Part shown: one piece after another, positions 49,243 to 53,514 of the stretch | How positions within the stretch are numbered: the first letter of the stretch is position 1 | Layout: each line of letters begins with the position of its first letter | Made by a program: the position numbers and the translations under genes | Origin: Terriglobus sp. RCC_193 | GTDB taxonomy: Bacteria > Acidobacteriota > Terriglobia > Terriglobales > Acidobacteriaceae | Length of the DNA stretch: 64,000 bases | Direction: 5' to 3' | Assembly: GCF_041355105.1 (NCBI RefSeq) | Contig: NZ_JBFUPK010000002.1 | Span: 806,001 to 870,000, forward strand | Notes under the pieces: generated by a model | Seen by the model: only the letters and a program-made list of their open reading frames with translations | Told to the model about the DNA's origin: nothing | Database searches by the model: none

Positions 49243-49444
49243 CTTCCGATTCCTTCCCGCGCCGATGGGCGCACGTATCCACATGCAATTAGAACCGTAT
49301 CCACAGCGAGGTTCTGCGGGAATTCTCAGGAGTTGCCGCGAAAGTTACCCCCGGAACCCGGTGCAACTTAAAGGAAAGAGCTGGCTTCCAATCTGCGATA
49401 AACCGAGGCACTCCGTTCGGAGCCCGGAAAAGGAAAATGCCACG

Positions 49445-50230
49445 TTGAAGCGATATCTCATTGCGCCTGCCGCCTCTCTTTTGTTTTCACCGCTATTGCT
49501 CGCGCAGGGAACGAATCTGTTGCCAGTTGCGGAGGCGCGGCTGGAGCAGCCAGTTCCGTTGCCGGATGCACCTTCTGCCGTGCGCGATTCGCTGGAGGAT
49601 CAGGCGTCACAGTCGAATGCGAATTCGCCTGTTCGGGCCAATGTGGGGAATTATGGCCGGCCAGTGGCGAAGAAGTACGCCAGCGTCATCTATCCCGGTC
49701 AGCAGTCGCTGCCTCTCAGCGCCACAGACAAAATGGTCTATGCAGTTCCTGACTCCTTTGGGCTGATGAATCTCGCCAGCATTATGACGTCGGCGGGATG
49801 GTCGCATCTGGTGGACTCCGCACCGCATTACGGCAGGAACAGCGAAGCCTTCGGCAAACGCGTGGGTGCTGCGACATTGCGCAACGCGACACAAAGTCTG
49901 ACTACCGACGCTGTCTTTGCCCCTCTTTTCCGGGACGATCCGCGCTATTACCAGATGGGGCGCGATCAAAACTTCTTCAAGCGCGGCCTTTATGCTGCCT
50001 CGCGTGTGGTGGTGACACGGTCTGACAGCGGCCACCAAACGCTGAATGCTCCATTGTTGCTCGGTTATGGCACCGCGGCTGGGATCAGCAACTTCATCTA
50101 CCCCGATCAGGACACGGGCGCGAAGGCCACGTTGGGCAACTACGGCATGTCATTGGGCGGTGCCGCCATTGGCATGCTCGCGAATGAATTTCTGGACGAC
50201 GCCCTGCGCATCGTTCATTTGCGCAAATAG
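49445..50230 (+). CDS. Exported protein of unknown function (acidobacterial family)
   Basis: A 261-residue protein. The TTG at 49445 is taken as start because it gives a clean signal peptide (KRYLIAPAASLLFSPLLLAQG) with AAGGA about 10 bases upstream. The mature part has FGLMNLASIMTSAGWSHLVD, ATQSLTTDAVFAPLFRDDPR and a Gly-rich hydrophobic end (LGYGTAAGISNFIYPDQ), which together look like a small beta-barrel or membrane-associated protein. Function unknown. A strong terminator follows. Confidence 0.6.
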   Translation: MKRYLIAPAASLLFSPLLLAQGTNLLPVAEARLEQPVPLPDAPSAVRDSLEDQASQSNANSPVRANVGNYGRPVAKKYASVIYPGQQSLPLSATDKMVYAVPDSFGLMNLASIMTSAGWSHLVDSAPHYGRNSEAFGKRVGAATLRNATQSLTTDAVFAPLFRDDPRYYQMGRDQNFFKRGLYAASRVVVTRSDSGHQTLNAPLLLGYGTAAGISNFIYPDQDTGAKATLGNYGMSLGGAAIGMLANEFLDDALRIVHLRK

Positions 50231-50297: not shown

Positions 50298-50553
50298 TTG
50301 CGAAAAAGTGACCCATCCGTTCACTGCAACAGATCACCGTTCGCTGCGCGATGTTGCTGTTCCGTAAATCGTGGATGTGTCGCCCTGATCCTTCCGATAC
50401 GCTTTTTGAGGCGCAAGTCCCTGTGTCTTTGCGGGTTCGTGCCGAAAGTTTGGAGCTTGGGATGGAACTCGATCATCTTTAAGCTTGTCGCATAGATTCA
50501 TTCCGCCTGTCCACGTGATCCCCACGGGGCGAGGCGTTCGTTCAGGAGAAGGT
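50298..50553. promoter_or_regulatory. Upstream region of the radical SAM gene
   Basis: These 256 bases contain no gene. They must carry the promoter of the radical SAM gene; the only clear signal is AGGAGAAGG just before its ATG. No riboswitch or operator pattern is recognisable. Confidence 0.35.
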
Positions 50554-52695
50554 ATGGCCAAGGCATCGAAGCTCGCAGAAAAAGCCCTTACGCTTGCAGC
50601 GCAAGGCGCATGGGTAGTGTTTGACAAGCTGAACAACATCAGCCCGAACCCGTCGTTCACACCGAAGTGGAGCGACAAGCCTCTGCTGAAGAGCTACCAG
50701 AAGGAAAAGCCTCCCCTTGGCTGGCCCCGCACCACTGATTCCCTCTGCCCCCGCTGCGTGCCGGAGATCCGTCAGCAGATTGTGGACGGCAAACTGCCCC
50801 ACGAAATCCTCCTGAACGAAAAGGTCGGCGAGATCAAGGCGCAGATCATCGAGCGCGATGGCCAGATCCTGATGGTGAAGGATTGTCCGATTCACGGCCA
50901 TTTCGAGGACGTGATGTCCATCGATCCGCCGATGATGAAGCACCTGGAAGACGTCTTCCCGGGCCGCGACATCCGCGCCCACAATGACGAGAAGCTGCAC
51001 AACCACGGCACCTCGACAGTCACGCACGGTCGTGGATCCGTTCTGACCATCGATCTGACCAACCGCTGCAACATGATGTGCGACCCCTGCTTCATGGATG
51101 CGAACCAGGTTGGCTTCGTTCACGAACTTACGTGGGACGAGATCAAGACCATGCTGGACAACGCGATCCAGATCAAGCCGCGTCGCCAGATGTCGGTACA
51201 GTTCTCGGGCGGTGAGCCGACCCTGAGCCCGTACTTCCTGGACGCTGTGGCCTATGCACGCAAGGTTGGTTACAACTCGGTGCAGGCTGCCACCAACGGT
51301 ATTGAGTTTGCCAAGTCGAAGGAATTTGCGAAGGCCGCGGCGGAAGCCGGTCTGCGCTACGCATACCTCCAGTTCGACGGTATCGGCAACGCTGCCAACA
51401 GCCACCGTAAGGTTGGTAACTCGTTCGACGTGAAGCTGCAGGCGATCCACAACCTGCATGAGGCTGGTGTGGACATCGTTCCCGTCACCTGCATCATCAA
51501 CGGCATCAACAACGAGCAGGTTGGCCGCATCATCGAGTTCGCGCTCGACAACCCGAAGAAGATCAACTTCCTCAGCTTCCAGCCGGTTTCGTTTACGGGC
51601 CGCGACGAAGCGGTTTCTGACGAGCGCCGCCAGGCACAGCGTTACACGCTGTCGCACCTTGCGCATGATATCCGCAACCAGACGGGCCTTGGCGAGTCCA
51701 CCCGCGACTGGTTCCCGATTTCGTTCATGTCCACCTTCTCCGACTGGGCCGATCTGGTTCACGGACCGGATCATGACTGGGGTCAGCTCTCCTGCGGTTG
51801 CCACCCGAACTGCGGTATCGGCATGGCGTTGATGATCGATAAGGAAACGAAGGAAGCCGTTCCGGTGACCGCGTTCCTGAATGCAGTGCAGCTTGCCAAG
51901 GACGTGGCCCGCGTCAACGACGCAGCCCGCGGCAAGTTCCTGTCCATCGTCGGTGTATCGCTTGCTCTGCTGCGCAATTATGATCCGACGAAGTCGCCCA
52001 CGCACTTCCGCATCATGGATCTGCTGCAGAAGTTCGACAAGTGCTTCGGCGCCACTGGCCGCAATTATGGCAAGGTGACCGGTGACCGCACCATGGCTGA
52101 CATTGAGAAGCGCCGCGCTGACCGCTGGAACTTCCTCTTTATCGCCGGCATGTGGTTCCAGGATCTGTTTAACTACGACTTCCGCCGTACCGAGCAGTGC
52201 ATCATCCCGTACGCCACGCAGGAAGGCGAAATCAGCTTCTGCGCGTACAACACGGGCGTTGGCTGGCGCAACATCATCGAAAAAATGCACATGACGTCGA
52301 CCCTCACCAAGTGGTACGAGGAGCACGGCCGTCACGAAATCTTCGCCGGTGGCAAGAAGGTTGCGATCGAGAAGCAGGAGAAGTATGACCTGGTGCTGAA
52401 CCAGGCGCATGTGGACTCTGCGGCGAACGACACCTTCGATAAGAGTGGTATCGCCAAGAACGCTCGCGAAGAGAAGATTCGCGCACGCGATGCGAAGCTG
52501 AAGCAGGATGCAGAGAACGCCCGCATGGCGAAGCTCTACCGCAAGGAAATCCTGAAGGAGGCCGAGACCCCCGGCGGCTTCGTCGCCATCGGCGAAATCG
52601 GCGGACTGGGCGGCATCAAGCCCGCAGCTCCGGCAACCAGCAACGTCGAAGTGGTGAACGCGATCAGCAACGACGAACTGGTCGCAGGCGACTAG
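50554..52695 (+). CDS. Radical SAM protein, tetraether/membrane-spanning lipid synthase (Tes/Mss)-like
   Basis: A 713-residue protein. An N-terminal Cys set (TDSLCPRCVPEI, Cys65/Cys68; KDCPIHGHFEDV, Cys111) precedes the radical SAM motif CNMMCDPC (Cys172/176/179) with SGGEP (218-222) for SAM binding. A further Cys group is CGCHPNC (414, 416, 420), and Cys497, 549 and 563 follow. The N-terminal CPxC / CPxHG element before a CxxxCxxC core is the layout of the archaeal tetraether synthase Tes (MJ0619 type) and its bacterial relatives, which join lipid tails. The core is followed by a basic/acidic C-terminal helix (about 640-680). ATG 50554 has AGGAGAAGG upstream. Probable substrate: membrane lipid acyl chains; monocistronic with its own terminator. 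Confidence 0.75.
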   Translation: MAKASKLAEKALTLAAQGAWVVFDKLNNISPNPSFTPKWSDKPLLKSYQKEKPPLGWPRTTDSLCPRCVPEIRQQIVDGKLPHEILLNEKVGEIKAQIIERDGQILMVKDCPIHGHFEDVMSIDPPMMKHLEDVFPGRDIRAHNDEKLHNHGTSTVTHGRGSVLTIDLTNRCNMMCDPCFMDANQVGFVHELTWDEIKTMLDNAIQIKPRRQMSVQFSGGEPTLSPYFLDAVAYARKVGYNSVQAATNGIEFAKSKEFAKAAAEAGLRYAYLQFDGIGNAANSHRKVGNSFDVKLQAIHNLHEAGVDIVPVTCIINGINNEQVGRIIEFALDNPKKINFLSFQPVSFTGRDEAVSDERRQAQRYTLSHLAHDIRNQTGLGESTRDWFPISFMSTFSDWADLVHGPDHDWGQLSCGCHPNCGIGMALMIDKETKEAVPVTAFLNAVQLAKDVARVNDAARGKFLSIVGVSLALLRNYDPTKSPTHFRIMDLLQKFDKCFGATGRNYGKVTGDRTMADIEKRRADRWNFLFIAGMWFQDLFNYDFRRTEQCIIPYATQEGEISFCAYNTGVGWRNIIEKMHMTSTLTKWYEEHGRHEIFAGGKKVAIEKQEKYDLVLNQAHVDSAANDTFDKSGIAKNAREEKIRARDAKLKQDAENARMAKLYRKEILKEAETPGGFVAIGEIGGLGGIKPAAPATSNVEVVNAISNDELVAGD

Positions 52696-52719: not shown

Positions 52720-52744
52720 AAGGCCACCCGAAAGGGTGGCCTTT
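52720..52744 (+). terminator. Rho-independent terminator of the radical SAM gene
   Basis: AAGGCCACCC (52720-52729) pairs with GGGTGGCCTT (52734-52743) around GAAA, followed by TTCTGCTT. It lies 24 bases after the stop. Confidence 0.9.
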
Positions 52745-52790: not shown

Positions 52791-53201
52791 CTAGAGATCC
52801 ACTAACGGTACATCCAGCGGTTCGAAGTCTTTTCGGTTTAAGGTCACGATACTCAGACCATGCACTGTTGCGGTCGCTGCAATCAGTGCATCTGCCAGAG
52901 ACGGATTCTTGCCCTTGCGACGTGCCGTGGCCAGCTTGGTCGAACAGACGTCCGCAATCCGAACATCTACCTCAACGATGCGGTCAGCAAATGTTGGGAT
53001 GATCCTGTCTTTGAACCAATGCTCCAGCCGTGTTCGCTTCGGCCCTTGCACCAGGAGGCGGATGCCGAAGAGCAGTTCTTCGATGGTGATGACGCTCAAA
53101 TAGAGATACTGGTGTGACACGCTCCGCAGAAATCGTGCAGCACTCGTGTCTCCGTGATCCTTGACTGTTTCTGAGACGATATTGGTGTCAAGCAGGTACA
53201 T
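52791..53201 (-). CDS. PIN-domain toxin (VapC-like)
   Basis: A 136-residue PIN RNase. Acidic active-site residues: Asp5 (YLLDTNIVSE), Glu41/Glu42 (ITIEELLFG), Asp104 (SLADALIAATA) and Asp125 (NRKDF). ATG 53201 overlaps the antitoxin stop by one base (TGATG). The target is probably tRNA or rRNA. Toxicity is inferred from the family. Confidence 0.92.
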   Translation of the reverse strand: MYLLDTNIVSETVKDHGDTSAARFLRSVSHQYLYLSVITIEELLFGIRLLVQGPKRTRLEHWFKDRIIPTFADRIVEVDVRIADVCSTKLATARRKGKNPSLADALIAATATVHGLSIVTLNRKDFEPLDVPLVDL

Positions 53202-53473
53202 CAGAACTTCGCAGCACGCGCCGATGTACGGTCGCGCTCGGCTGTAAAGTCGCCTGCGCGTCCCAGCTTGGATGGTCGCATCGCATCCCAGGCGCTCATA
53301 CCCTTTGCAGGACGGATGGGAGGCATAGCCTTCCGCGCCTCCCACTCCTCACGCGAAACAATCACGGCCACAGGTTTCCCGTTGCGGGTGATCTCTTGCG
53401 GTTCATGCCGTTCGGCGCGTTCCACCACTTCGCTGAACTTTGCCTTTGCTTCTGCCAATCCCCACGTCGCCAT
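53201..53473 (-). CDS. Phd/YefM-type antitoxin
   Basis: A 90-residue protein with ATWGLAEAKAKFSEVVERAE and ITRNGKPVAVIVSREEW, the Phd/YefM DNA-binding fold; the C-terminal about 45 residues would wrap the PIN toxin. Start ATG 53473 without a clear ribosome site. It is upstream of and coupled to the toxin gene, and probably represses the operon at the TGGTCAA repeats. Confidence 0.9.
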   Translation of the reverse strand: MATWGLAEAKAKFSEVVERAERHEPQEITRNGKPVAVIVSREEWEARKAMPPIRPAKGMSAWDAMRPSKLGRAGDFTAERDRTSARAAKF

Positions 53474-53475
53474 GA

Positions 53476-53514
53476 TGGTCAATCTAGTCCATCTGGTCAA
53501 AGTGGTCAACTATA
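53476..53514 (-). promoter_or_regulatory. Promoter / operator region of the toxin-antitoxin pair with three TGGTCAA repeats
   Basis: TGGTCAA occurs three times (53476-53482, 53494-53500, 53503-53509), at spacings that are multiples of 9 bases. On the coding strand TATAGT (53509-53514) is a plausible -10 box and the repeats lie just downstream of it. The repeats abut the antitoxin start, so they are candidate operator sites for Phd-type autoregulation. Confidence 0.5.

Follow-up and report, generated by a model that had tools for sequence, protein, structure and literature searches.

Which enzyme joins fatty acyl chains tail to tail in the Acidobacteriota? The product at issue is iso-diabolic acid, whose ether relatives, the brGDGTs, are the basis of temperature and pH reconstructions. 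Acidobacterial homologs of Tes, proposed for membrane-spanning lipids, were known before; what is added here is a clade of such proteins that loses one metal cluster. Iso-diabolic acid itself has been reported in subdivisions 1, 3, 4 and 6 (PMC13274423), and the literature passages that deal with its synthesis treat the acidobacterial coupling enzyme as a proposal without a test. Bacterial Tes homologs are described as untested in the relevant passage of another account (PMC11868695).

We analysed a 64-kb window, that is, the whole stretch of 64,000 nucleotides of Terriglobus sp. RCC_193 DNA in which the gene at 50554-52695 lies. An initial annotation of this window had suggested that the gene may encode the chain-coupling enzyme of the organism. 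Below we ask what kind of protein the gene encodes, how it is related to known coupling enzymes, and which reaction it would most probably carry out.

Results

A radical SAM protein of the Tes type

The gene lies on the plus strand where it was first placed and encodes a radical SAM protein of 713 residues (Table 1). We prefer the start at ATG 50554 to the TTG at 50485 that an automatic ORF listing gives, because AGGAGAAGG precedes this ATG and because its position is close to the protein starts of several relatives. Pfam recognises a radical SAM domain at residues 168-330 and, above its cut-off, the N-terminal zinc-ribbon/rubredoxin-type domain PF23545. The top NCBIfam family is the tetraether lipid synthase Tes (NF045702; 313.2 bits, E 2.8e-93, residues 61-580), although the score stays below the curated equivalog cut-off (313 vs 450 bits).

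Second among the curated families is TrsS (NF045646), which raises the question of whether the protein could be a TrsS or class D type radical SAM enzyme with a substrate other than a lipid tail. We find this scarcely credible. The TrsS score of 205.7 bits is far under the cut-off of 490, the TrsS-like proteins L077 and L078 lack [4Fe-4S]C ligands that the 713-residue protein keeps, and both are separate from its clade on the tree described below.

Table 1. Features of the gene, its product and its 3' flank (window positions).
Feature	Position	Strand	Basis
CDS, 713 aa, Tes-type radical SAM protein	50554..52695	+	ATG 50554 after AGGAGAAGG, stop TAG
N-terminal helix, residues 4-27, moderately amphipathic	50563..50634	+	AlphaFold2 pLDDT 85-97 (blocks 1-30), hydrophobic moment 0.39
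Rubredoxin-type metal domain PF23545, residues 58-122, ligands C65, C68, C111, H114	50725..50919	+	Pfam, alignment
Stretch equivalent to Tes N-terminal 4Fe-4S ligand region, residues 139-163	50968..51042	+	Alignment
Radical SAM core, residues 163-350, with SGGEP and FQPVSFTGR loop	51040..51603	+	Pfam, alignment
CNMMCDPC, residues 172-179, CX3CX2C radical SAM cluster motif	51067..51090	+	Sequence, alignment
CGCHPNC, residues 414-420; C420 equivalent to [4Fe-4S]C ligand C338	51793..51813	+	Alignment
Rest of C-terminal cluster region, residues 525-566	52126..52251	+	Alignment to MJ0619
C-terminal tail, residues 601-713: charged helix 637-665, then low-confidence end	52354..52692	+	AlphaFold2 model, alignment
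10-pair hairpin AAGGCCACCC-GAAA-GGGTGGCCTT, likely terminator	52720..52743		Folding z-score -3.75

A search of PDB sequences returned the archaeal enzyme MJ0619 (7tol) as the top match (E 8.7e-58, query residues 93-587), followed by a runner-up at 3e-6; MJ0619 is the sole PDB relative of the protein past the generic SAM core. An AlphaFold2 model built from a 54-row alignment reached a mean pLDDT of 82.9 and a pTM of 0.86, and its low-confidence loops include residues 182-185 and 537-540, beside the metal sites. When the model was used for a structure search, it matched 7tom and 7tol (E 4e-28 and 3e-26; rmsd 5.0 and 4.6 over 568 and 563 alignment columns) with a TM score of 0.80 by target length and 0.57 by query length, the latter including the extra ends of the 713-residue protein. 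After these came MoaA (E 1.5e-7). Because MJ0619 is the only such PDB match, Tes is the top NCBIfam family and the model matches 7tom and 7tol, sequence and model together indicate that the protein is a relative of Tes over the whole enzyme. The initial annotation had recognised a Tes-type layout and had advised comparing a predicted structure with that of Tes; family assignment, PDB match and this comparison, in which the cysteines were aligned in sequence, all back the layout.

Judging from the model, it is possible that the N-terminal helix could touch the membrane. The charged C-terminal stretch, which had been pointed out as unusual, is real. The tail that contains it differs in sequence and length between relatives, and its final ~40 residues are weakly conserved in the group-A alignment.

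Metal sites and active-site residues

The cysteines of the protein are C65, C68, C111, C172/C176/C179, C313, C414/C416/C420, C497, C549 and C563; every one named in the initial annotation is present, and C313 was missing from its list. Among 213 aligned relatives, C65, C68 and C111 are kept in 206, 205 and 209, C172, C176 and C179 in 211, 210 and 211, C414, C416 and C420 in 177, 203 and 209, and C549 and C563 in 209 each, with C313 (20) and C497 (42) being variable. A pattern kept across so many relatives is no accident. The suspicion of more than one metal site was well founded, as alignment to MJ0619 finds rubredoxin-type, radical SAM and C-terminal 4Fe-4S ligand sets.

The rubredoxin-type ligands of MJ0619 are C9, C12, C33 and H36, of which the last two pair with C111 and H114 in the alignment. 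C65 and C68 were assigned by motif and by PF23545, since the aligned stretch of MJ0619 starts past C12. Between C68 and C111 there is an insert that is absent from the D-type Tes rows compared.

In what follows, window type denotes proteins of the kind of the 713-residue protein, and canonical type denotes group D, whose members have the N-terminal cluster and score 472-619 bits on NF045702. The initial annotation had credited our protein with the N-terminal Cys set of archaeal Tes. This holds for the rubredoxin-type ligands but not for the CX3CX2C...H of the N-terminal 4Fe-4S cluster, which is lost clade-wide: MJ0619 residues C73, C77, C80 and H83 are replaced by K147, H151, S154 and T157. 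In a set of 172 window-type sequences, defined by absence of the full CCCH set and including one that has a single Cys of that set, the three Cys columns hold K/D/G in 131, H in 168 and S in 165. The same 172 sequences have Cys at each of C420, C549 and C563 in 171 cases and Met at M533 in every case.

The radical SAM motif is provided by C172, C176 and C179. For the residues around 5'-dAH and the active-site loop we used the roles assigned in MJ0619, as given in the passages on them in its published description (PMC9433317). Eleven of these 13 residues are kept (F180, A183, G220, Y271, D275, R285, V311, Q343, S346, T348 and R350); the two exceptions are D182 in place of N108 and C313 in place of T238. 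The MJ0619 counterpart of the FQPVSFTGR loop is assigned to 5'-deoxyadenosine binding in the same passages (PMC9433317).

At the C-terminal cluster, MJ0619 C338, C455, C470, M439 and Y459 correspond to C420, C549, C563, M533 and Y553. Scored in blocks of 25 residues, conservation in the group-A alignment is highest across residues 525-566. The description of MJ0619 names Met439 as a labile ligand where this cluster is treated (PMC9433317), and conservation suggests that C338, C455 and C470 are its Cys ligands. C414 and C416 are additional conserved cysteines, invariant in 54 aligned clade members.

MJ0619 (Tes/GDGT-MAS) and the 713-residue protein are thus alike in predicted fold, rubredoxin-type site, radical SAM cluster, most 5'-dAH contacts and a C-terminal 4Fe-4S cluster with a labile Met and a conserved Tyr. 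Unlike MJ0619, to which it is 29.5% identical, our protein is without the N-terminal 4Fe-4S ligands and has a longer rubredoxin loop, the additional C414/C416 and extra extensions at both ends. It would be expected to carry two 4Fe-4S clusters and one mononuclear Fe, compared with three and one in MJ0619.

A clade within the bacterial Tes-type proteins

We built a tree of 54 rows, rooted on MJ0619, with four matches from a plasmid search with the canonical-type protein L067 as outgroups. The window clade takes up 29 of the 54 rows, the 713-residue protein included, with support of 100/100; it is composed of Acidobacteriota and some Myxococcota. It branches from within the bacterial Tes-type proteins, beside L104 (from genome G130) and family f7, on a stem of 1.19 changes per site. 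Closest homologs outside the Tes/Mss clade would have spoken against the initial annotation; on the Tes side, the protein falls inside the bacterial Tes-type proteins. Forcing 16 canonical-type rows into one clade was rejected by the AU test at a cost of 30 log units (p-AU 0.0018, for a set picked post hoc with the tree known), and the test did not reject a smaller set of 12 canonical rows that left out L104 and f7 (p 0.34).

The window clade thus arises from a group D background. Members of group D keep the N-terminal cluster and pass the Tes cut-off, whereas the window clade does neither. By identity, group D is the kind of protein that Zeng 2022 gives for Koribacter (42%) and Solibacter (40%) in the passage on bacterial homologs (PMC8941075). 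In L104 the N-terminal cluster is found together with C414 and C416, and in f7 together with C414; these intermediate sequences suggest in which order the changes came about. Members also drift in other ways: a paralog in genome G011, L066, has lost all C-terminal cluster ligands.

Distribution of the two types

Thirty of 41 genomes of relatives carry the window type and six the canonical type instead. Four more (G033, G034, G036 and G038, 54-88% complete) have matches limited to the generic SAM core, and one (G019, 90% complete) has no match. In genus g1, which includes Terriglobus sp. RCC_193, the window type occurs in 19 of 19 genomes at 91-100% identity. A broader sample comprised 297 Acidobacteriota genomes, each at least 85% complete: 168 match at 1e-20, 141 have the window type or the close groups B/C (E < 1e-190), and 31 have a canonical Tes-type protein above the cut-off. 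Both types (window type or B/C, with canonical) occur together in at least 10 of the 297 genomes, three of family f1 and seven of f31, so the two are no simple substitutes for each other.

Strict complementarity of the two types across the phylum was considered and dropped in view of these genomes; it holds in family f2 only. There, ten genomes at least 85% complete divide into four with the window type, five with the canonical type, one with neither and none with both, and the split runs by genus, three against three. In genomes G282, G150 and G107 the two types are separated by 0.5, 3.7 and 6.1 kb, and these neighbouring copies may go back to one ancestral event.

A scan for the clade motif GMWFQDLF found at least 119 stretches, and all 119 of those listed encode the family. 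Among the matches listed, 111 are titled Acidobacteriota (Acidobacteriaceae, Granulicella, Acidipila, Bryobacterales, Blastocatellia, Pyrinomonadaceae and Vicinamibacteraceae are represented), seven are titled Myxococcota (Polyangium fumosum among them), and one, titled Bordetella parapertussis, probably corresponds to G206:C1, which belongs to the window's class. One clade member, L190 of group C, is titled Holophagales and lies, if the title is right, beyond the subdivisions reported for iso-diabolic acid. The motif had no match in viral contigs, and plasmid records held distant radical SAM proteins only (in all 18 records the match spans less than 80% of the query).

Other radical SAM proteins and the relation to Mss

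The Terriglobus sp. RCC_193 genome is rated 99.98% complete, and no second Tes-like gene was found in it; the runners-up on the Tes model, at 63 and 49 bits, match over the SAM core only. It encodes 15 radical SAM proteins, ours included, and 12 of the 14 others resemble named families. Ten are above a curated cut-off (MoaA, MiaB, HpnJ, RimO, MqnC, HemW, HpnH, LipA, MqnE and RlmN), and two have their best match under it (PA0069 family and QueE). The remaining two, L253 (359 aa) and L257 (688 aa, B12-binding), are without a named family.

Mss, the confirmed synthase of Thermotoga maritima, which was reportedly discovered by Sahonero-Canavesi et al. in 2022 (Science Advances), is proposed to work similarly, by tail-to-tail coupling. 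The T. maritima control genome has no match to NF045702 at E <= 1e-40, nor to PF23545; among the archaeal controls, M. jannaschii, S. acidocaldarius and M. acetivorans match both. Once the limit is relaxed to 0.001, NF045702 matches 14 of 14 control genomes, T. maritima included, which is what a common SAM core would produce. Judged in this way, through the T. maritima genome and not through the Mss sequence, Mss looks like a family apart from the 713-residue protein, and the joint Tes/Mss label of the initial annotation should be split. In the passages concerned, the bacterial coupling enzyme backed by heterologous expression is Mss (PMC11604127, PMC11868695), and it has been superposed on Tes by AlphaFold (PMC13274423).

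It is conceivable that a Thermotoga-type Mss or another radical SAM protein does the coupling in this organism, and that the gene at 50554-52695 is unrelated to iso-diabolic acid. We consider this improbable. The expression evidence for Mss and the two proteins without a named family speak for it, but L253 matches the Tes model over the SAM core only (49 bits), L257 carries a B12-binding domain, and neither has the Tes layout.

Surroundings of the gene

The hairpin of Table 1 lies in the gap between the CDS and a convergent PIN-domain gene. A consensus terminator scan called it solely for the minus strand and counted 3 sites across the region vs 3.2 in shuffles; a promoter scan found 1 site vs 0.9 expected. 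The gene had been described as standing alone with its own terminator. It does appear to be a single gene, and the folding score favours the hairpin, but the scan lists the hairpin on the minus strand and the upstream ORF has the same orientation. As this ORF ends ~320 bases before the CDS, the two may be co-transcribed.

We ran Pfam on seven neighbour proteins, five of the window and two of relatives. Matches were SPOR/DPBB, HerA, PIN, aminotransferase and Sortilin/BNR, with a DUF4837 match under the cut-off and no match for the upstream 321-aa ORF. A comparison of 15 loci (the window and 14 genomes, with L112 left out) revealed no pathway context around the gene, because neighbour genes are common only to some same-family relatives.

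Discussion

Based on these results, we propose that this acidobacterium owes its tail-to-tail coupling to the gene at 50554-52695, whose product, a bacterial Tes-type protein, would join two iso-C15 acyl chains into iso-diabolic acid. From sequence and model we put the probability of this reading at roughly 0.73. We favour it because MJ0619 is the best PDB match both in sequence and in predicted fold, because the protein retains the ligands of the C-terminal cluster along with 11 of the 13 residues assigned to the 5'-dAH surroundings and the active-site loop, because this is the sole Tes-like gene found in the genome, and because of its distribution (30 of 41 relatives; 141 of 297 Acidobacteriota with the window type or B/C). 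The initial suggestion of a chain-coupling enzyme is thus backed by the Tes-model score, homology to MJ0619, the ligand alignment and the predicted fold.

Our model of the reaction takes MJ0619 as its template. SAM would be cleaved at the radical SAM cluster (C172/C176/C179), and the 5'-deoxyadenosyl radical would abstract a hydrogen at the end of the first chain. The carbon of this chain would then stay bonded to sulfur (C-S) at the C-terminal 4Fe-4S cluster (C420, C549, C563 and the labile M533) until the other chain is activated by a second SAM, whereupon the C-C bond would be made. In this way two glycerolipid iso-C15 acyl chains would be joined at their methyl ends to give membrane-spanning iso-diabolic acid.

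The substrate would probably be ester-bound iso-C15 chains. DUF2229, which we take to be a marker of Ger/PlsA-type ether formation, is absent from the Terriglobus sp. RCC_193 genome and present in four controls, T. maritima among them. The product should therefore be ester-bound, barring a different route to ethers such as Elb or Agps (the search covered DUF2229).

Lipid reports fit a coupling role. E. aggregans has one Tes homolog (32% identity to archaeal Tes, 4e-61) according to the passage in Zeng 2022 (PMC8941075). This level appears to fit the window type, with 29.5% identity to MJ0619, better than canonical L067, with 43%. Six Edaphobacter strains including E. aggregans are listed with iso-diabolic acid at 11.8-30.4% of fatty acids (PMC11354219), and five strains around Occallatibacter at 26.8-49.2%, in the excerpts concerned (PMC12935467). 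These E. aggregans data, the pattern in f2 and the 0.5-6.1 kb proximity in G282, G150 and G107 argue that coupling is the job common to both types. We also considered hopanoid modification, which is unlikely: Pyrinomonadaceae and Blastocatellia records carry the gene, and subdivision 4 strains are mostly hopanoid-free, with C. thermophilum as the exception in the passage on these strains (PMC5462960).

Several observations weigh against coupling. The score is under the Tes cut-off, and loss of the N-terminal cluster together with the long stem would equally fit a change of function. Window and canonical types coexist in at least 10 of 297 genomes, the contrast within f2 comes down to three genera on either side, and the neighbouring copies perhaps reflect one ancestral event. 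G019 is without a match, four other relatives have the generic SAM core only, and L190, if correctly titled, falls outside the subdivisions with iso-diabolic acid. The protein could thus have kept the Tes fold and C-S radical storage for a different lipid product, with chains joined at other positions or an already coupled chain being modified, and another enzyme would make iso-diabolic acid. The extra C414/C416, the rubredoxin-loop insert and L066 with its lost ligands point the same way. We regard this as unlikely, though worth weighing, for the ligands of the carbon-storing cluster are kept almost throughout the window type, no other Tes-like gene was found in the genome, and E. aggregans, with its one Tes homolog, is among the strains that make iso-diabolic acid.

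If coupling is the function, as we prefer, the N-terminal cluster would be dispensable for the coupling chemistry. Extending this to the family, we lean, at slightly better than even odds on the sequences, towards a large Acidobacteriota clade, reaching into the Myxococcota, with a streamlined Tes-type enzyme that would make iso-diabolic acid without the N-terminal 4Fe-4S cluster. Our literature search returned passages with no report of such a loss. As the cluster would lie at the surface, losing it may reflect adaptation to aerobic life.

By sequence and model, the gene at 50554-52695 would be the best candidate for the acidobacterial membrane-spanning fatty acid step.

The curated Tes cut-off excludes the window clade. 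With one named candidate gene, an expected cofactor set and a natural variant that is short of one Tes cluster, both the origin of the lipid and the role of the cluster become testable questions. If our reading of the clade is true, the Acidobacteriota would have a bacterial route to membrane-spanning lipids that is distinct from, and additional to, the Thermotoga-type Mss, and would supply natural evidence that sp3-sp3 coupling needs no N-terminal cluster.

Intermediate and paralogous Tes-type proteins

Four Tes-type proteins, L104 (genome G130) and L106, L108 and L110 (family f7), adjoin the window clade on the tree. In the alignment, all four have both the N-terminal cluster and C414, one of the extra conserved cysteines (window protein numbering), and L104 additionally has C416. 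We regard them as intermediates.

A paralog in a genome of the window's genus, L066, is 40% identical to the window protein. It retains the radical SAM and rubredoxin-type ligands in the alignment, and the C-terminal cluster cysteines at positions C420, C549 and C563 are gone. Because of this loss, L066 is probably incapable of Tes chemistry.

Genomic context

At three loci, L111 (G282), L113 (G150) and L114 (G107), a canonical Tes-type gene lies 0.5-6.1 kb from the window-type gene. In G150 and G107 the two are separated by a gene for a protein of ~1060 aa, which in G107 contains Sortilin/BNR repeats.

In the window, a PIN-domain gene and a small ORF lie side by side, convergent with the Tes-type gene; they are perhaps a toxin-antitoxin pair. 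The 321-aa ORF upstream had no match in a Pfam search, and its relatives adjoin the Tes-type gene in several close genomes.

Coordinates of the paralog and of the window genes discussed
Feature	Position	Strand	Remark
L066	G011:C1:3779869-3781617		633 aa
PIN-domain gene	52794-53345	minus	within positions 52791-53509 of the window
Small ORF	53201-53509	minus	Phd-like, judged by eye
321-aa ORF	49265-50230	plus	upstream, same strand as Tes-type gene

Distribution

A public MAG titled Bordetella parapertussis (L183, CALQCC020000001.1) contains a window-type gene on a contig of the same length as G206:C1, which is placed in the window's class; this title is probably a mislabelling.

Among the matches listed, at least seven Myxococcota loci (L132, L203, L215, L229, L233, L236 and L244) encode proteins of the cluster-losing clade, and one carrier is Polyangium fumosum. 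Membrane-spanning lipids in these Myxococcota might merit a look.
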